Assembly: GCA_002840275.1 (NCBI GenBank) | Contig: PHAB01000006.1 | Span: 62,001-126,000 of the forward strand | DNA: 64,000 nt | Reading direction: 5' to 3' | Source: Firmicutes bacterium HGW-Firmicutes-14 | Lineage (GTDB): Bacteria; Bacillota; Thermincolia; Thermincolales; UBA2595 | In this document: positions 1-43,038 of the stretch, in pieces | Layout: the number at the start of each line of letters is the position of its first letter | How positions within the stretch are numbered: position 1 is the first letter of the stretch | The notes under the pieces: model-generated | What the model was told of the DNA's origin: nothing | What the model saw: the letters and a program-made list of their open reading frames with translations, nothing else | Databases searched by the model: none | Program-made: the position numbers and the translations under genes

Positions 1-1619
1 TTCTTACTCCTTACGAGCCTGCTATTGGCCGGCTGGCTGTTGTAAAGATTGATCAATCTGGGAAAATTGTCCCGGGCTTTGATCTGAAATTTGAGGTGCC
101 TGCCCCTGTTGATTTATCTCTCATCGGAAAATACGTTTTTGTACAGGTCTCAGGCGGCGGTTCTGTCTGCATATTGGATTCATGGGGTAAGAGGGTGCTA
201 AAGTATTCTCCAACTGGAAACAAGGTCTGGGAATACAGTGACTGGACAGCGTTCCCGGAAAACCCGGCCGGTTTCGGTGTTGACACGGAAGGGAATCTGT
301 TTATCGGTGAAGGCGGGACTCTGGGGGGAGGGAGTGACCAGGAGCGGTTTATTCATAAATACAGTCCCTCGGGCGCTTACCTGGGTGCGGTTTCTTTTTA
401 CCGGGGGCATGTGGAAAAGTTACAGGTAGACAAGGGTGACCGGATTTTTGTCTACAATGGGGAAGAAGGAAACCTCACCGTACTAAAACCTGAGAAATCC
501 TATTACAGGTCCCAAAAGAGCCTGCTGCCCGCCGGAACCTATTTTTCCAGGGCCTTCGAAAACCCGTTTCCGGAAATCCCCTGGCACAAGGTGTTATTGG
601 ATGGGGGAATTCCTGATAACACCCAGGTTAAGGTATCATATCTCATTTCTAATGAAAAACAATTTGCCATCAAAGGGGAAATGCATGATCTTGATGATTA
701 TCTCAGCAGGGCTGCGGAACTTCCGGTTGAAGAGCGGGAAGGAAAGGTTGAAGATTTAAACAGTCTGGCCTGGTCCGCTCCCCTGGTTAACCCGGGGGAT
801 GCCCTCATCCATGGCCCGGCGGGCCGTTACCTGTGGCTGAGGATTGAACTCACGGGAAGCGAGCGGGATACTCCTCTCTTAAAGAGCATCCGGGTATATT
901 ATCCCCGTGATTCCTACCTGCGCTACCTGCCGGCTGTTTACCGGGAAGATGAACAGAGCAGGGATTTCCTTGAACGTTTTCTCTCCCTGTTTGAGACATT
1001 TTTTTCCCGGATGGATTTTGAGATCGGCCATATTGAACGTTACCTGGATGCCGAATTTGTGACCGGTGATTTCCTGCGCTGGCTGGGGTCGTGGTTATCA
1101 ATAGCCGTAGATGAAAACTGGACGGATGAAAAGCTGCGGCTGCTGATAAAAAAAGCCCCCGCCCTTTATAAAAAGCGGGGCACCAGGGAAGGGATCCAGG
1201 AGATTATCAGGGTTTATACCGGTGATAAACCGTTTATTATAGAGCATTTTCAGTTAAGGTGCGCCCAGGCTGAAGAGGAATCCCGTGAACTTATGGAAAG
1301 GCTTTACGGGGCGGACCCTTACGAATTTTGCGTGCTGTTGAAACCGTTTCAGGTTAAGACCGGAAATGAACGCCTGACCGTCAGGCGGATTATTGATGGG
1401 GAAAAACCCGCCTATACCCAGGCCAGGGTTGTTCACCTGGAACCGTGGATTTACCTGGATATGCATACCTATCTCGAAGTAAATACTTATCTTTCCAAAC
1501 CCGTTCCGGCCCTTGATTCAGGCGCTGTTATGCCGCGTGACACGGTCTTGGGCGATATTGACGAAGCCGGGCAGGTGGAGAGGCGTTCGAGAATAGGGCT
1601 GGATACAGGTTTGACCTAA
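1..1619 (+). CDS. eCIS/phage tail-like protein with beta-propeller N-terminal part (5' partial)
   Basis: The reading frame is open from base 3 with no stop, so the gene starts upstream of the window; an internal GTG at 96 is not needed as a start. The first part has propeller-like repeats (VLKYSPTGNKVWEY, FIHKYSPSGAYLGAV). The last third, from about YLRYLPAVYRED to IIRVYTGD, matches the tail-protein domain usual in extracellular contractile injection systems and some phages (the TIGR02242 type; P2 gpI-like), recognised by its FLRWLGSWL and KKRGTREG segments. In such loci this protein belongs to the baseplate region. It lies 93 bp before a fibre-like gene in the same direction. I see no capsid or integrase gene, but upstream sequence is missing. 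The family call is from memory of the motif, not a search. Confidence 0.75.
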   Translation, partial: LTPYEPAIGRLAVVKIDQSGKIVPGFDLKFEVPAPVDLSLIGKYVFVQVSGGGSVCILDSWGKRVLKYSPTGNKVWEYSDWTAFPENPAGFGVDTEGNLFIGEGGTLGGGSDQERFIHKYSPSGAYLGAVSFYRGHVEKLQVDKGDRIFVYNGEEGNLTVLKPEKSYYRSQKSLLPAGTYFSRAFENPFPEIPWHKVLLDGGIPDNTQVKVSYLISNEKQFAIKGEMHDLDDYLSRAAELPVEEREGKVEDLNSLAWSAPLVNPGDALIHGPAGRYLWLRIELTGSERDTPLLKSIRVYYPRDSYLRYLPAVYREDEQSRDFLERFLSLFETFFSRMDFEIGHIERYLDAEFVTGDFLRWLGSWLSIAVDENWTDEKLRLLIKKAPALYKKRGTREGIQEIIRVYTGDKPFIIEHFQLRCAQAEEESRELMERLYGADPYEFCVLLKPFQVKTGNERLTVRRIIDGEKPAYTQARVVHLEPWIYLDMHTYLEVNTYLSKPVPALDSGAVMPRDTVLGDIDEAGQVERRSRIGLDTGLT

Positions 1620-1712: not shown

Positions 1713-3551
1713 ATGAAAGAGTGTTCGTTTCACCCCTTTGAGAGGAACAGGTATTTTTACGGAAAACTGCTGACGGTCCGGGATTTTGAAACAGAACAGC
1801 GTTATTTCATGGAAAAGGGGCATACCATCAACCGGCTGATTCACGGGATGGGCGTAGTATGCGGGATGGAGGCAAGTGACCCGCTGATAGAAGACGGCCA
1901 ATTGACGGTGATTTTATCTGAGGGCGCAGCCCTGGATTGCTGTGGCAATGAGATTATCAACAGCAAGAATAACCGTGTTCCGGTAAAAGGCAGTTACCAG
2001 GATGGGACAAATTATCTTTACATAAAATATGCTGAAATCGAAAAAGAACCTGTGCCATGTATGGCCAATGCCCCTGCCTGTGCGGAAACCTGCTGTAACA
2101 GCAGGATCCAGGAGGTATTTGAAGTCATGGTAAGCTCAGAACCTCCCGCTGTAATCCCGGAGGGTGAGGAAGAAGATGAAGACGAAGACGGATCCGGGTG
2201 TGTGACCGGTGACGAGCATACCAGACCATATTTGACGGTTAATGATCCCAGGGTCCTGCTGGCAGTGGTGAATATTTCGGGGAATGAGGCAGACATTGAC
2301 GAGGCCAAGACCGGGGAATACCGCTCTATTGTATACAACAACCCCCTCCTGAGCCACCTGCTGGATTGTCTGAAAAAACGCCTGAACAGCCACCTGCAGG
2401 ATTTTGACAATCCTCATCACACAACAGCAGCCCAGACCGGCGCACCGGTCAGTATCGACGGGGTGTCCAACCCGGGCGGCAATATTGATCTGGCAGCCGC
2501 CAACAGTATCCAGATTACCCCCGATGACAGCAGCAATACCATCACCATTGGGGAAAACCATTCATCGGTAGAGGGCAACCCGCACAAAACAGCCCATGGA
2601 CAGACCGGTCCCGAACCGGCTGACCCCGATAGCAGCGGGTCTGAGAGAAACAGGCATGTTTCCAATGATGATGCCGCCAGGTGGAACCGTTCCCTAACCG
2701 GAATCCAGGCAAACGGCGGGACTGTTCTGACCAACCCGGGCGGAGCTGTCAACCTGGCGGCAGGAGCCAATATATCGCTAAATCCTGATGAAACCACAGG
2801 CACTCTGACCATCAGCGCCTCCGGCGGCGGTACCGCTCCGGCGGCCAGGTCAGGACGGGTAGTTCTGGAGACCAACGAAAAAGGATATGGTTCAGTAACG
2901 GTGGATTCGGGGTTTGATGATGAATTCTTCTTTGTCTATACCGGAGTGGAATACAATAGATATGTGGAATACGGCCCCTCTATCGAATATGCCGGACAGG
3001 TTCTTCATCCTATTATAAGAATTCACCGGCCCACCATTGGGCCAACCATTGGGCCAACCATTGGGCCAACCATTGGACCGACAATAATACCTACTATCGA
3101 GCCGACTATAAGGCCGACAATCGAACCGACTATACGTCCGACTCTCAGGCCGCTGGCAACAACGCCCGGGCACTTTGACATTGTTATTAATAACCCTGAA
3201 CTCGGTGAACAGTCAATACCATTCCGTTGGTGCGCGGTACCCGTCCTGTTCCGCACGATACCGACCATACCACCAACAATCCGCCCGACAATCGAGCCAA
3301 CCATAGGGCCCACTATCAGCCCTACTTTCAGGCCGACGATTTCACCTACTGTTGGTCCGATAACAATCCGGCCATTGAGCGAGGTTGCGGGCATTGGTGA
3401 AGTTTATTCCAGTAAGCTGAAAGAGAACGGGATTGGCAGTCTCGAATTACTGGCTGCTGCCGAACCGGCACGTGTGGCTGAAATACTGGAAATCTCAGAA
3501 GTGCGCGCCATGGCTTTTGTTGATGAAGCCAAGCGGTTGTTGAGGGGTTAA
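1713..3551 (+). CDS. eCIS-associated fibre-like protein with Pro-Thr-Ile repeats and C-terminal HhH domain
   Basis: A 612-residue protein with start ATG and GGGAGG upstream. The N-terminal ~120 residues (FERNRYFYGKLLTVRDFETE, RLIHGMGVVCGME) resemble a domain found next to eCIS tail genes. The middle is low-complexity, Gly/Asn/Asp-rich and fibre-like. Two blocks of PT(I/V/L/F)x tetrapeptides follow, about 10 units at residues 440-480 and 8 units at 517-549, separated by a short globular stretch. The last 60 residues (VAGIGEVYSSKLKENGI) form a helix-hairpin-helix-like domain. There is no signal peptide, as expected for a particle assembled in the cytoplasm. A role as tail fibre or receptor-binding protein is inferred from context. 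The Thr-rich repeats could be glycosylated by the next gene's product. Confidence 0.6.
   Translation: MKECSFHPFERNRYFYGKLLTVRDFETEQRYFMEKGHTINRLIHGMGVVCGMEASDPLIEDGQLTVILSEGAALDCCGNEIINSKNNRVPVKGSYQDGTNYLYIKYAEIEKEPVPCMANAPACAETCCNSRIQEVFEVMVSSEPPAVIPEGEEEDEDEDGSGCVTGDEHTRPYLTVNDPRVLLAVVNISGNEADIDEAKTGEYRSIVYNNPLLSHLLDCLKKRLNSHLQDFDNPHHTTAAQTGAPVSIDGVSNPGGNIDLAAANSIQITPDDSSNTITIGENHSSVEGNPHKTAHGQTGPEPADPDSSGSERNRHVSNDDAARWNRSLTGIQANGGTVLTNPGGAVNLAAGANISLNPDETTGTLTISASGGGTAPAARSGRVVLETNEKGYGSVTVDSGFDDEFFFVYTGVEYNRYVEYGPSIEYAGQVLHPIIRIHRPTIGPTIGPTIGPTIGPTIIPTIEPTIRPTIEPTIRPTLRPLATTPGHFDIVINNPELGEQSIPFRWCAVPVLFRTIPTIPPTIRPTIEPTIGPTISPTFRPTISPTVGPITIRPLSEVAGIGEVYSSKLKENGIGSLELLAAAEPARVAEILEISEVRAMAFVDEAKRLLRG
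3030..3152 (+). repeat. In-frame 12-bp repeat block 1 (PTIx)
   Basis: About ten 12-bp units encode PTIG, PTII, PTIE, PTIR or PTLR. The first four are almost identical at the DNA level (CCAACCATTGGG), which points to recent slippage; the later units have diverged. Confidence 0.9.
3261..3359 (+). repeat. In-frame 12-bp repeat block 2 (PTIx)
   Basis: Eight PT(I/F/V)x units in the same frame as block 1, with more divergent codons. Both blocks preserve the reading frame, so copy-number change would alter fibre length without truncation. Confidence 0.85.
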
Positions 3552-3592
3552 ATCGTGAGATTCAGACATTTTAAGGATACGGTTGGCTAAGT

Positions 3593-4483
3593 ATGAAATC
3601 AGGTAAGGTTAGTGTTGTTATTCCCGCACATAATGAGGGTGAAAACTTAATAGACACTGTCAATTATATCTTAAAAAATACTGATTACCCGGCATATGAA
3701 GTGGTGGTAGTGGACGATAATTCTACTGACGGCAGCGGCGATCGTGTCGCCGCTGGTCATAATGGAGACAGCCCGGTCATAGTTATTAAAGCAGATGGGC
3801 TGGGAGTTGCAGGAGCCCGAAACCTGGGCGCCCAGGCAGCCGGAGGGGATATACTGGTATTTATTGATGGACACACCTACACCCCTCCGGGATGGTTGCC
3901 ATCATTAATTGCTCCTCTCACCGACTCCAGGGTGGGTATGGTGGGCCCCGCTTTTGCCGATTTGACTAACAATAATGGGACCAAAGGACTGGGCGCGATT
4001 CTGCGTGATGCCAGCCTGGAGATGGACTGGCTTCCCCAGAAGGCTGACGAATTTTATCCTGTCCCTCTTCTGCCCGGAGGTTGTCAGGTAATGAGGAAAG
4101 CCGATTTTATTAAAATCGGGTGTTATGATACGGGAATGACCAGGTGGGGGAGCGAAGACCTGGAAATCAGCCTGCGCGCCTGGCTGATGGGTTACCGGGT
4201 GGTTGTGCAGCCACAGTCGGTAATATACCACTTGTTTCGCCAGAGCCACCCTTATCATGTGGAATCATCCCAGGTTATTTATAACCGTCTCCGCATGGCC
4301 CTCCTTCACTTCAGTGAAGAAAGGACGGCCCGGGTGTTTGATTATTATAAGGGCATACCCGAATTTGGACAGGTTATGTTACGGCTCATGGAAAGTGATA
4401 CCATGGAACAGCGAAAACAGTTTCGGGAAATCCGCAGCCGGGATGACTGCTGGTACTTTGAGCAGTTTGGCTGTCCATTTTAG
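3593..4483 (+). CDS. Glycosyltransferase, GT-A fold, resembling polypeptide GalNAc transferases (GT2/GT27-like)
   Basis: 296 residues, start ATG. The N-terminal GT-A nucleotide-sugar fold is visible as VSVVIPAHNEGENL, then VVVVDDNSTDG. A DxH metal site is present (IDGH, residues 91-94), where most bacterial GT2 enzymes have DxD. Further on come IGCYDTGM (175-182), WGSEDLEISLRAW (185-197) and HLFR (213-216). This order and spacing recall the catalytic region of mucin-type polypeptide GalNAc transferases (DSH, YDxGMxxWGGENLEISFR, GHVFR). The gene follows the PT-repeat fibre by 41 bp in the same direction, so Thr modification of the fibre is an attractive guess. It could instead act on a polysaccharide. 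No membrane segment is seen. Confidence 0.8.
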   Translation: MKSGKVSVVIPAHNEGENLIDTVNYILKNTDYPAYEVVVVDDNSTDGSGDRVAAGHNGDSPVIVIKADGLGVAGARNLGAQAAGGDILVFIDGHTYTPPGWLPSLIAPLTDSRVGMVGPAFADLTNNNGTKGLGAILRDASLEMDWLPQKADEFYPVPLLPGGCQVMRKADFIKIGCYDTGMTRWGSEDLEISLRAWLMGYRVVVQPQSVIYHLFRQSHPYHVESSQVIYNRLRMALLHFSEERTARVFDYYKGIPEFGQVMLRLMESDTMEQRKQFREIRSRDDCWYFEQFGCPF

Positions 4484-4508: not shown

Positions 4509-4683
4509 TTTTGACTATAACTAAAGGAGGGGCAGATATGTTCCTCTAGGATGAGTCTGATGTCCGTTTGTCCAACATGGCAGCCTTAGCGCTTCAGCGC
4601 TTAGAGCTGCCATGTTGGGTAACAAACTGAATCGTTGCCATTCTAGGGGAACATATCTGCCTCTCCTTTTTCTAAGTTGAAAA
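4509..4683. repeat. Long-hairpin repeat element, copy A
   Basis: About 175 bp able to fold into one long hairpin. The outer arms, 4523-4550 and 4642-4670, share GGCAGATATGTTCC and its complement. The inner arms (GTTTGTCCAACATGGCAGC and its near-complement) close on a loop near 4600. The ends are TTTTGAC-like. It sits between convergent genes and could also end transcription. Related copies lie at 43560, 49848 and 51574. Confidence 0.7.
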
Positions 4684-4763: not shown

Positions 4764-4940
4764 TCACTCTAAGCTAAGGCATGCCACCGGACAATTGTCA
4801 ACACAGGCGCCGCACTCAATACATGCTTCGGGGTTAACCTGTACCGCTTTATCATCCTGAATTTCCCACACTCCCGCAGGACATACATCGGCACAGGTCC
4901 CACAGCCAATACAGCAATCCACGTCAATTCTGGGAGCCAT
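4764..4940 (-). CDS. 2x[4Fe-4S] ferredoxin, 58 aa
   Basis: A short gene read from ATG at 4940 with GGAGGTGATTTGA just upstream. The product, beginning MAPRIDVDCCIGCGTC, has two clostridial-type cluster motifs: CIGCGTCADVCP and CIECGACVDNCP. The length (58 residues) and paired CxxCxxCxxxCP motifs are typical of small bacterial ferredoxins that carry electrons at low potential in the cytoplasm. The gene stands alone on the minus strand, upstream of an SOS-type promoter that faces the other way. The redox partner is not evident; serine dehydratase and the AOR in this window do not lie beside it. Confidence 0.93.
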   Translation of the reverse strand: MAPRIDVDCCIGCGTCADVCPAGVWEIQDDKAVQVNPEACIECGACVDNCPVACLSLE

Positions 4941-5221: not shown

Positions 5222-5641
5222 ATGGAAGCTATTCTCAAACAAATTTTAGGCAAGGTTGACGGTATCGAAAGGAGTATTATAAGACTTGAGGGCAGGGTAT
5301 CTAATCTTGAGCAGGGCCAGGCCAAACTGGAGCAGGGCCAGGCCAAACTGGAGCAGGGCCAGGCCAGATTGGAGGAAGGCTTCTTCAGACTTGAGGGCAG
5401 AGTGGACAGTCTGGAGCAGGGGCAAGCCAAGCTGGAGCAAGGCCAGCAGTATATTATTCGCAAACTGGATGCAGTTATTGAACAAACCGCGGACCTTCTC
5501 GAATGGCGCACACAGGTTAATTCCAAGTTAGATGATTTGACGGAAAAGCAGGATAACCTGTACAATAATGTGGAGCATTTAGCCGGTGAATTGGCCAAAC
5601 AAAAAATGGATATCGAGTGGCTGAAGAAAAAAATAGTATAA
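5222..5641 (+). CDS. Heptad-repeat coiled-coil protein, 139 aa
   Basis: Start ATG preceded by GAGGAG. Residues ~25-80 consist largely of heptads of the type LEQGQAK (five or more near-identical units) interrupted by LEEGFFRLEGRVD, so a parallel coiled coil is expected. The DNA shows matching 21-bp tandem repeats (around 5308-5375). No enzyme motif, signal peptide or membrane segment is seen. Proteins of this kind are common and mostly uncharacterised in Firmicutes. It is the first complete gene after the SOS-box promoter, so damage-linked expression is possible but unproven. A terminator follows at 5671. Confidence 0.8.
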   Translation: MEAILKQILGKVDGIERSIIRLEGRVSNLEQGQAKLEQGQAKLEQGQARLEEGFFRLEGRVDSLEQGQAKLEQGQQYIIRKLDAVIEQTADLLEWRTQVNSKLDDLTEKQDNLYNNVEHLAGELAKQKMDIEWLKKKIV

Positions 5642-39420: not shown

Positions 39421-42400
39421 ATGAAAAAACTTTGGAAGCCTGGATTGATTATTCTGCTGGTACTGGTGGTAATAACTGCAGGTATTTATGGAGCCAGTGC
39501 CGCCACCGGAGTGGTATCAGGGTTAGCTGTCAGTCCTGACCCGGTCAAGATAGGCTCAACTGTTACTATCCAGTATTCTTTGGCCCAAAATGCGTACATA
39601 ACCATAAAAGTATATAAGGATACAGGAGAGCTTGTACGGACTGTGGCCAATAATGTGGTTAAATATGCAGGCAGCCAGTTCCAGAACTGGGACGGGAAAG
39701 ATGACAGCGGCCAGTTGGTTTCAAACGGTACATACAGGTTTGAGGTCCAGGCAAAGGATTCATCAGAGGCAGTTATCGGACAGGAGGAAGTTACAAGGCT
39801 GGCCGCCCGTGTTCCGGCCATAAGCGATGTAACCGCTGTACCGGCAACTATCAATCCTCTGAATGGGGAGAGTACAACAATAAGCTATACCATTTCTACT
39901 GATGCTATAGTAACAGTTACTATATTGAATGGATATACCGCTGTCAGGAACCTGACTGCTAACGAACTGCAGACTGCCGGTGCCAAAACTGTGGTCTGGG
40001 ACGGCAAAGACAGCAACGGTAATGTTGTTAATGATGCTTCATACACATGCCAGATAGATGCTGTAAGCCCGCTGGTTTCAACCTTCAGGAGTACATATAA
40101 GGGTACCGTCAATGTTGAAAAAGGCGGGCCCCAGATTACAGGTTTTGCGGCAAACCCCAACCCACTGAAGCTTGGCAGCAGTACTCTGAGCATTTCTTAT
40201 ACCCTGAGTGAAAACTCATATGTTACCTTAAACATTCTGGACAGTACAGGGGTTGTGAAAAGGACACTGCTCAGTTCAACAGTCAAATATGCCGGAACCA
40301 ACATATCTTCCTGGGACGGCAAGGACAGCCCGGGGAATTTAGTGCCCGAAGGAGTTTATACGGTTTCCCTTATTGCCGTGGATTCTGCCGGCAACTCATC
40401 AGGGGAACAGACCCTGCCGGTTACCGCCGGTTACCAGCCGGCCATAACCAATGCCGCGGCTTCTCCGGACCCGTATAATCCTTCAGACCCGGCCAATAAT
40501 ACCCTCACTGTGAGCTACAACCTTTCAAACGACTCCAAGGTTACTGTGCAGATTTTCAGCGGTTATACTGCTATTAAAACTCTTGTCGATAACCAGATAC
40601 AGACAGCCGGAAACCGGTCGGTCACCTGGGATGGCAGGGACAGCAGCAACAATTTGGTTACTGACGGTTCATACAGTTTTCAGATAACTGCTGTCAGCCC
40701 CACTGTCAGCTCCTTTACTACAACTTACAAGGGTAATTTTACTGTAGAACAGGGGCCGCCGGGAGTTACCCAGTTGAATTTAAGCCCGTCTCCTTTCAAG
40801 CTCGGCTCCGGTAACATGACCATAAGCTATAACCTGAGTGAATCTTCAACGGTTAACATCACTGTCTGGCAGGAGACTACCCTGGTGAAGACCCTGCTGG
40901 CCGACATCGCTAAAGGTGCCGGGTATAACTCCTGCACCTGGGATGGCAAAGACGGCACAGGCAGCCCGGTCGGTGAAGGAATATATACTGTGAAGATAAC
41001 AGCAGTTGACAGCGCCGGGAACAGCGGAGAGGCCTCCGCCAATGTGACAGCCGGATATCTGCCGGCCCTGACCGGTATAAGTCATGCCCCTGAACCTTTC
41101 GACCTGGCCGCAGGCAGCGTAACGATCAACTTCAGTCTATCCAGTAATGCCAAGGTGACAGCTACCATTTTACAGGGCTATACGACTGTCAGGACCATGT
41201 CACTGGGGACAGTGGCCTCAGGTGCCAACAGTGTTCAGTGGGACGGTAAGGATGGCAGCGGGAAGTATGTTGCGGACGGTCCGTATACGTACCAGATAGA
41301 CGCTGTCAGCCCGACTGTGGACAGTTTCAGGAGCACCTATAAGGGGATTGTCAATGTTGAAAGCGCCAGTCCGCAGGTAACCGGCCTCAGTATCAATCCT
41401 GTTCCGGTCAAGATAGGGTCCAATGCAACTATAGCCTACACTATCAGCGAACCGGCAACTGTCACTGTCAGTATTATGAACCAGCAGACCGGGGCGGTTA
41501 TCCGCGAATGGCCTGCCCAGAATAAGACCGCAGCCGGAAGCTACTACATGTCATGGGATACCAAAGATAATGCAATGAACTTAGTTACCACGGGAGACTA
41601 TCAAGTGAAGGTAACTGCAGTTGATTCGTCCGCCAATACCGGCTCTGCCGAGGCTGCCTTCAAGGCTGCCGCAGTGCCCAGGATTACGGACGTTTCAGCA
41701 AACCCGGCAAACCTTGATGTCGAAGCTGGGATAACCACTTCCACCATTTCCTATTACGTCTATGAAGACTCTTATGTAACGGTAAAGGTATTTGATACCA
41801 ATAATCAGCTGTGGAAGACTCTGTGTTCCAGCAAGAGAGTGTCAGGTCCGGATTCAGTAAGCCTGAATGTGGTGGACGAAAACGGTCAGGCAGTGACGGG
41901 GAATCTCACCTTTACTGTCGACGCTTCTTCGGTAAGCGGGTACTTTAGGGCTCAACAGGCTTCAGGTACCATTGTGGTCAGCGGACCGGGTGTCAGCCCC
42001 TCAGACTGCACAAGCTGTCATACCGGCTATCCTGGGATCCACCCAATGACAAACTGTTACGGTTGCCACGGGAATGATGTGCCTGTCCAGAACTGTGCTG
42101 CTTGCCACGCCAATTTTACCCACAATGACGGCCTGGTCCTGAAGAAGTTCCAGTGTGTTTACTGCCACAATGAAACATTCAGCTATAAAATTCCCGGCCA
42201 CGGTGACATTACAACTCTGCATGACACCGGCCTTTCTGCCGATTGTCAGAACTGCCACGACCCGAACCTTACTGTGGAACACCCAAAATATACAGACCCT
42301 GTCACCTTGCTGCCATATGACTGCAATACCTGCCATGAAAGTACAGTGGCAGAGGTGGCGTATGCTATTGAAAACAACCTCAGGAACTGTGATGCATGCC

Positions 42401-43038
42401 ATGTCGGGCAGAGCCACGACCAGCTGCATGCCACCGATTATCTTGACACCAACTGTGAAACATGCCACATCGATAACCTGACCCAGGAACACCTTACCAA
42501 TGAGACAACACAAAAAGACCCTGTTACCGGCCTGTTTAGTCCCAAGGACTGTGCAGCCTGCCATGACAGCAGCAGCCCGACAGTAACCGGGGCAGTCTAT
42601 ACAGAGAACATGCAGTGTGCGGCCTGCCACCGTTCGGGCCACAATATGAACTTCGTCGAAAAAGTGTGTCCCGATATTGTTCAATATCCCGGATATGACT
42701 GGTCGCCGCCCCAGGATGCTTCCATCTGGGCCGGGGAGTCATGGATGCCCGATGAATTCCTGTTGGGCGGGAAGCTGATCATATCCAACCGGCGCCAGTC
42801 GGCTAACGGTATTGTTGACCCGGCTTATGGCGCGGTTTATGATTACTACCATACCAATATGCTCTCCAACGGATGGACAGAAGTCTCATATACTACGGGA
42901 ACTGACCAGTATTTCACCGCAACTTATACCAAGCCTGATAACCATAAAGCCATAGTCTGGTTCTACGGCGGAATCGACCATAATCCCGATTCACTTCCGC
43001 TTAGCACCGGCTACAGGATAGAAGTCCTGTATAAATAA
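39421..43038 (+). CDS. Giant secreted decaheme cytochrome c with eight FlgD-type Ig repeats, 1205 aa
   Basis: ATG with GAGGAGGTG. A signal peptide (PGLIILLVLVVITAGIYGASA) precedes about eight ~100-residue repeats of the FlgD Ig-like type, recognised by WDGKD(S)xGxxV (NWDGKDDSG, VWDGKDSNG, SWDGKDSPG, TWDGRDSSN, TWDGKDGTG, QWDGKDGSG, SWDTKDNAM). Two kinds alternate, one ending AVDSAGNSG and the other AVSPTVxxFRSTYKG. A ten-heme part lies at residues ~862-1075 (CTSCH, CYGCH, CAACH, CVYCH, CQNCH, CNTCH, CDACH, CETCH, CAACH, CAACH). A ~130-residue C-terminal domain is unrecognised. Likely a long stalk that carries hemes away from the cell surface. Confidence 0.9.
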   Translation: MKKLWKPGLIILLVLVVITAGIYGASAATGVVSGLAVSPDPVKIGSTVTIQYSLAQNAYITIKVYKDTGELVRTVANNVVKYAGSQFQNWDGKDDSGQLVSNGTYRFEVQAKDSSEAVIGQEEVTRLAARVPAISDVTAVPATINPLNGESTTISYTISTDAIVTVTILNGYTAVRNLTANELQTAGAKTVVWDGKDSNGNVVNDASYTCQIDAVSPLVSTFRSTYKGTVNVEKGGPQITGFAANPNPLKLGSSTLSISYTLSENSYVTLNILDSTGVVKRTLLSSTVKYAGTNISSWDGKDSPGNLVPEGVYTVSLIAVDSAGNSSGEQTLPVTAGYQPAITNAAASPDPYNPSDPANNTLTVSYNLSNDSKVTVQIFSGYTAIKTLVDNQIQTAGNRSVTWDGRDSSNNLVTDGSYSFQITAVSPTVSSFTTTYKGNFTVEQGPPGVTQLNLSPSPFKLGSGNMTISYNLSESSTVNITVWQETTLVKTLLADIAKGAGYNSCTWDGKDGTGSPVGEGIYTVKITAVDSAGNSGEASANVTAGYLPALTGISHAPEPFDLAAGSVTINFSLSSNAKVTATILQGYTTVRTMSLGTVASGANSVQWDGKDGSGKYVADGPYTYQIDAVSPTVDSFRSTYKGIVNVESASPQVTGLSINPVPVKIGSNATIAYTISEPATVTVSIMNQQTGAVIREWPAQNKTAAGSYYMSWDTKDNAMNLVTTGDYQVKVTAVDSSANTGSAEAAFKAAAVPRITDVSANPANLDVEAGITTSTISYYVYEDSYVTVKVFDTNNQLWKTLCSSKRVSGPDSVSLNVVDENGQAVTGNLTFTVDASSVSGYFRAQQASGTIVVSGPGVSPSDCTSCHTGYPGIHPMTNCYGCHGNDVPVQNCAACHANFTHNDGLVLKKFQCVYCHNETFSYKIPGHGDITTLHDTGLSADCQNCHDPNLTVEHPKYTDPVTLLPYDCNTCHESTVAEVAYAIENNLRNCDACHVGQSHDQLHATDYLDTNCETCHIDNLTQEHLTNETTQKDPVTGLFSPKDCAACHDSSSPTVTGAVYTENMQCAACHRSGHNMNFVEKVCPDIVQYPGYDWSPPQDASIWAGESWMPDEFLLGGKLIISNRRQSANGIVDPAYGAVYDYYHTNMLSNGWTEVSYTTGTDQYFTATYTKPDNHKAIVWFYGGIDHNPDSLPLSTGYRIEVLYK

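Follow-up and report, generated by a model that had tools for sequence, protein, structure and literature searches.

The window, by which we mean the whole stretch of 64,000 nucleotides that was analysed (G000:C2:62001-126000), opens at the 3′ end of an eCIS operon. The body of this operon lies just upstream, on the same contig (L002, G000:C2:42001-62000). Its genes begin with Pvc16_N, two sheaths, tube proteins, eCIS_core and LysM/CIS_tube, and continue with a VgrG split in two pieces, PAAR, gp25, two baseplate-J proteins, CIS12, CIS13 and a transferase. Sheath, tube, eCIS_core, VgrG/PAAR spike and baseplate are all encoded in this one locus, and the preliminary description was right to call it an eCIS, most genes of which are situated upstream of the window.

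The first gene seen in the window is the C-terminal part of a CIS12-family baseplate protein (positions 3..1619, plus strand; NF053768 3.6e-69, TIGR02242 7e-31, Tail_P2_I). Its full gene (L004:484-2619, 711 aa) starts upstream of the window and ends at position 1619. The last two genes of the operon follow on the same strand: a CIS13-family fibre or adaptor protein of 612 aa with Pro-Thr (PT) repeats (1713..3551) and a polypeptide GalNAc-transferase-like GT-A glycosyltransferase (GT) of 296 aa (3593..4483). Both reading frames and the 41 bp between them are exactly as first described.

Directly 3′ of the transferase gene lies a 147-bp element (4523-4669) that resembles a MITE or a strong terminator: its terminal inverted repeats are 31 bp long and 90% complementary, and between them is a perfect hairpin of 13 bp. 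Downstream of the operon, a small ORF on the minus strand (about 4770-4940), below the length limit of the ORF list, codes for a two-cluster 4Fe-4S ferredoxin. The first clear gene on the strand of the operon starts at 5222; this coiled-coil ORF (5222-5641) contains a 21-bp tandem repeat (EQGQAKL) at 5309-5374. Far from the operon, at 39421-43038, we found an unusual surface multihaem protein of 1205 aa with seven FlgD_ig domains and multihaem cytochrome c7-type domains.

The CIS13 fibre and its repeats

The match of the fibre to NF053767 (2.2e-38, 132.5 bits) covers only its N-terminal region (aa 8-249) and does not reach the equivalog cut-off of 370 bits, while orthologues are found at 59-62% identity. 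Judged by its sequence, the 612-aa fibre is related to CIS13 but differs in its C-terminal half. The N-terminal CIS13 region (1734..2459; FERNRYFYGKLLTVRDFE...) is common to all CIS13 loci and is presumably the part that binds the baseplate.

The C-terminal half starts with a beta-rich domain (aa 378-516; 2844..3260), for which hhalign shows a similar domain in the Phycisphaerae partner described below; its beta strands are predicted at low confidence only. PT block 1, a candidate O-glycosylation tract of ten PT[IVLF]x units (3030..3149; PF04886 PT repeat), is inserted in this domain. PT block 2, with eight such units (3261..3356), links the beta domain to a C-terminal HHH_5-like domain (aa 553-607; 3369..3533), a candidate docking site for the transferase (HHH_5 8.4e-6, just below the curated cut-off). 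The HHH domain has a pLDDT of 76-89 in AF2 and is the sole reliable part of the whole CIS13 model, which was built from a five-row alignment and reaches a pLDDT of 43, so that neither the fold of the beta domain nor disorder of the PT tracts can be claimed from it.

The estimate of about 18 repeat units proved accurate: exactly 18 were counted, in blocks of 10 and 8 and with strict four-residue spacing. In 10,000 shuffles of the protein this number was never attained, and the maximum was 7. All four Pro and all four Thr codons are in use in the repeat, which shows that it has been maintained at the protein level and is not a recent product of DNA slippage. Chance and slippage were both rejected on these grounds. 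The five complete orthologues, this fibre included, have 17-23 PT dipeptides, nearly all in the four-residue register. Their synonymous codons are likewise mixed, and in some lineages most units have shifted out of block 1 and into block 2. In the orthologue comparison no Ser stands in for Thr at the PT positions of either block, and position 3 of the repeat is mostly occupied by a hydrophobic residue in all five. The fixed hydrophobic residue is a hint of a structural function, which a mucin tract can do without.

The transferase and its relatives

The motifs reported earlier for the transferase were all confirmed: DGH at residues 92-94, YDTGM at 178-182, WGSEDLEIS at 185-193 and HLFR at 213-216, to which HPY at 219-221 can be added. 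D92-G-H94 (3866..3874) is the DxH metal-site motif, whose D and H are invariant in 44/44 family members and are present in GT27 too. WGSEDLEIS (4145..4171) aligns with WGGENLEIS of GalNAc-T2. HLFRQSHPY (4229..4255), which holds the third metal-binding His and the catalytic loop, aligns with HVFRKQHPY of the same enzyme. The alignment of 44 relatives shows D92, H94, H213, R216 and Y221 to be invariant, and the counterparts of D92, H94 and H213 bind Mn2+ in Toxoplasma GalNAc-T3 (PMC11074326). Among the long general GT2s from the loci, 10/18 carry Asp where the DxH motif has its His.

Domain models placed the protein broadly. The best Pfam model was the general GT2 one, Glycos_transf_2 (7e-30), together with Glyco_transf_7C, and the best NCBIfam match was MftF (TIGR03965, 2.9e-26, far below the equivalog cut-off). 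Searches against the PDB gave polypeptide GalNAc-transferases as best matches, at 1.5e-23 with the single sequence; with the profile (hmmsearch) they were the top 15, at 125 to 90 bits (best 2.4e-35), followed by chondroitin synthase at 83 bits (2e-22). The AF2 model built with the 44 relatives has a mean pLDDT of 94.6, and its best 50 Foldseek matches in the PDB were all polypeptide GalNAc-transferases (TM 0.78-0.85 over the query, E to 1.7e-23), viral matches being far weaker. The protein stops after the catalytic domain, and no Pfam lectin model matched within its 296 aa.

The tree separated four GT27 sequences from the GTs of eCIS and Phycisphaerae as two clades with support of 100/100 each, its deep forks being weak. 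Membership of GT27 by descent was rejected on these separate clades and the missing lectin domain. Fold, profile and the DxH/HxFR/HPY signature uphold the earlier view of a GalNAc-transferase-like enzyme, but its place inside GT27 is contradicted by the tree; the transferase would work like a GT27 enzyme without being a member. An ordinary polysaccharide synthase of the general GT2 type is disfavoured, as neither fold nor motif groups the transferase there, yet in Pfam the general GT2 model fits it best. For GalNAc as the transferred sugar the analysis gave no support: the Asn of the GT27 motif WGGEN is Asp here, the lectin domain is absent, and the SgtA/BclA3 precedent discussed below uses UDP-GlcNAc.

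Relatives at about 40% identity and with the same DxH/HxFR signature are widespread: 43/113 genomes of one class had a match, mostly outside eCIS. The GTs paired with a fibre form a 100/100 clade apart from these orphan GTs. Some of the orphans (L050-L067, L220-L239) lie near Pro/Thr-rich proteins of surface or spore type with CAP, PG-binding or SPOCS domains, and small CNA-B-like proteins are also among the neighbours of some. Pro/Thr-rich neighbours numbered 7/135 near the orphan GTs and 3/265 far from them (p = 0.035), a weak difference from observations that are not independent. It is possible that these orphans are putative general protein O-glycosyltransferases of these anaerobes, and the comparison suggests that the eCIS enzyme was recruited from a bacterial family of that kind. 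In viral contigs all GT2s were distant, the best at 33% over most of the length, and CIS13 or HHH had no relatives there. No close GT was found on plasmids and phages (best 37%), and the plasmid CIS13 matches were N-terminal only. Among 392 genomes of Planctomycetota, the GT profile had a sole match, in the Phycisphaerae genome itself.

Pairing of fibre and transferase

We searched 399 sampled genomes of Bacillota, and 113 from one class, for the N-termini of CIS13 and obtained 20 readable loci and one decayed remnant. A PT-repeat CIS13 followed by the transferase was present in 6/6 loci of one eCIS subclade (G000, G004, G383, G475, G459 and G492). The other 14 CIS13 loci lack PT repeats, HHH and GT alike; the downstream region is visible in 12 of them, and two (L083, L186) are cut by contig ends. 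The resulting 2×2 table of PT repeats against transferase is extreme, and its six positive loci are one subclade, so that the pairing in eCIS counts as one origin and not as six independent events. The expected co-occurrence was therefore seen in every locus of one subclade, but not across eCIS in general.

Within the subclade the pairing is retained down to 52-62% protein identity. The transferase is 60-62% identical across the loci, as high as the CIS12 and baseplate-J proteins (52-58%), and the genes downstream vary. Its start lies no more than 41 bp from the stop of the partner gene, or overlaps it, in four eCIS loci and in the Phycisphaerae locus. In G459 the fibre and the enzyme lie 850 bp apart, with another gene between them; that gene (L180:3615-4190), which takes this position in G459 only, codes for a CxxCxxCC (PF03692) protein with a metal-chelating domain. 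Within the sampled genomes the HHH subtype occurs only in G000, G004, G383, G459 and G475, the corresponding region of G492 being hidden by a 100-N assembly gap.

The decayed remnant of a PT-type CIS13 gene (L187:7379-7663, genome G487) has no GT nearby, and fibre and enzyme appear to have been lost together there. Directly after fibre and transferase, genome G004 carries on the minus strand (L048:2236-4532) a 531-aa protein with a C-terminal SsdA-type DNA deaminase domain, and then an Imm5 immunity protein. This pair suggests antibacterial targets for the eCIS subclade.

A second context was found in a Phycisphaerae MAG (locus L005). There a protein with the beta domain, a VGPTNPPTPTPFF linker and an HHH is encoded ahead of two enzyme genes in tandem, with identities of 52 and 59%; the first of these overlaps the partner gene by 4 bp. 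The C-terminus of this partner matches aa 378-612 of the CIS13 fibre with an hhalign probability of 97.2 (E 3.6e-11) and by BLASTP at 29% over 123 aa. The 5.9-Mb genome gave no match to eCIS_core, but control genomes gave none either, and the absence of an eCIS is to that extent unproven. The Pro/Thr linker is short in L005 (3 PT), which marks the HHH, and not the PT repeats, as the constant partner of the enzyme. L005 is the strongest evidence that the enzyme and the C-terminal module belong together irrespective of eCIS.

Possible function and known systems

Because the fold match is joined by a pairing conserved in related bacteria, the injection particle probably has its own, putative, sugar-coating step. 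We give a probability of about two in three to the prediction that a dedicated cytoplasmic O-glycosyltransferase modifies the Thr of the Pro-Thr tract of the fibre, with the HHH as its probable means of recruitment. On this view the operon ends with the genes for a substrate and for the enzyme dedicated to its modification. The N-terminus of CIS13 would attach the fibre to the baseplate, and its C-terminal module would offer the beta domain, Pro-Thr tracts of about 17-23 units and the HHH. The soluble, lectin-less GT-A enzyme would bind this module in the cytoplasm before or during assembly of the particle, most likely by the HHH, and place one sugar residue, donated by a UDP-sugar (GalNAc, GlcNAc or Glc), on each of many Thr of the tract; a single residue is proposed because the locus has only one transferase gene. 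The released particle may thereby gain a mucin-like stalk that is stiff, hydrophilic and resistant to proteases. Enzyme activity, Thr acceptors, HHH docking and a stiffening or shielding role of the glycan are what we infer in this scheme.

The strict four-residue period and the mostly hydrophobic third position in all five complete orthologues would also suit an unglycosylated structural stalk, with P and I/V/L turned towards a trimer core and T and x outward, while the GT modifies the beta domain, the HHH or another particle protein. The constancy of the HHH instead of the PT in the non-eCIS locus L005 agrees with this as well. However, in its fold and loop residues the GT corresponds to enzymes whose acceptor is Thr beside Pro, a Pro/Thr linker is present even in L005, and Thr is never replaced by Ser; we regard a bare stalk as improbable. 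It is also conceivable that the enzyme, as a paralogue of the widespread orphan family, has an acceptor unrelated to the particle (a cell-surface glycan or another protein) and is its neighbour by accident. Relatives at about 40% do lie in varied non-eCIS neighbourhoods in most of the 43 matching genomes (of 113), and the best Pfam model is a general GT2, but an incidental neighbour is quite improbable given the complete pairing in the subclade, start codons that overlap or nearly so, the strict co-occurrence with the HHH, the independent pairing in Phycisphaerae and the clade of paired GTs apart from the orphans.

Toxins are often encoded at the 3′ end of eCIS operons, as the deaminase and Imm5 right after the GT in G004 illustrate, and a glycosyltransferase effector of eCIS is on record (PMC10598620). 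The GT might accordingly be injected as a payload into the cells of a target, in the manner of the Afp18-related eCIS toxin that glycosylates Rho. This is very unlikely: cargo varies among the loci whereas the GT is as conserved as the baseplate proteins, it is doubled in L005 where no eCIS is visible, and its 296 aa are a catalytic domain only, with no fused eCIS_core or delivery domain. The payload toxin was disfavoured by this conservation and by the occurrence in L005.

Glycosylation of the Pro-Thr tract can be extended to a bolder proposal, possible but doubtful in our judgement, of a portable cassette of substrate module and enzyme. It would be a true bacterial mucin-type system, in which a cytoplasmic GalNAc-transferase-like enzyme places alpha-GalNAc on many Thr of Pro-Thr tracts and HHH docking replaces the lectin domain; Bacillota would use it for injection particles and Planctomycetota for a different protein.

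If glycosylation of the fibre is true, it adds a maturation step to eCIS delivery machines. The enzyme would be a compact, lectin-free bacterial tool for Thr-Pro glycosylation with a possibly transplantable docking tag, and could serve as a bacterial outgroup in tracing where the enzymes of mucin-type O-glycosylation came from. In the literature searched we found no eCIS particle described as coating its own fibre with sugar, and the eCIS glycosyltransferase described there is a toxin payload (PMC10598620). The CIS13 proteins of other eCIS (NF053767) share the N-terminal region and the operon position with our fibre, but its C-terminal half consists of the beta domain, PT tracts and HHH, and the others sampled have neither PT tracts nor HHH.

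The eukaryotic enzymes of CAZy family GT27, such as GalNAc-T2, which in animals attach the first sugar of mucins to Thr, resemble the transferase in the GT-A fold over its full length (TM about 0.8), in DxH, WGxE[N/D], HxFR and the HPY loop, and their preferred acceptor, Thr near Pro, fits the repeats of the neighbouring fibre. The transferase differs from them by the lack of a C-terminal ricin-type lectin domain, by the N to D change in WGGEN, by an identity of about 25% and by its separate clade; it is bacterial and cytoplasmic, and the likeness rests on sequence and fold. The mycofactocin glycosyltransferase MftF, the best NCBIfam match, also acts on a peptide-derived substrate, but has a different acceptor, is a longer protein and has no fibre partner. 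Mycobacteriophages glycosylate their own capsid and tail-tube proteins, according to a passage of PMC12363180 that cites Freeman 2023. As described in that passage, a phage-like particle is modified by its own transferase, although the substrates are capsid and tail tube instead of a PT-repeat fibre, the particles are true phages, and they are likened to ours by description.

In C. difficile, SgtA, whose gene adjoins bclA3, O-glycosylates Thr in GPT repeats with UDP-GlcNAc as donor and in beta linkage (PMC7157674). BclA3 is a spore protein with collagen-like GPT repeats, not an injection particle, and the two systems are likened by description. In both, however, a bacterial GT gene lies beside that of a Thr-Pro-repeat surface protein, to the Thr of which SgtA adds an O-linked sugar, and here too the GT gene is kept beside the repeat-protein gene in several genomes.
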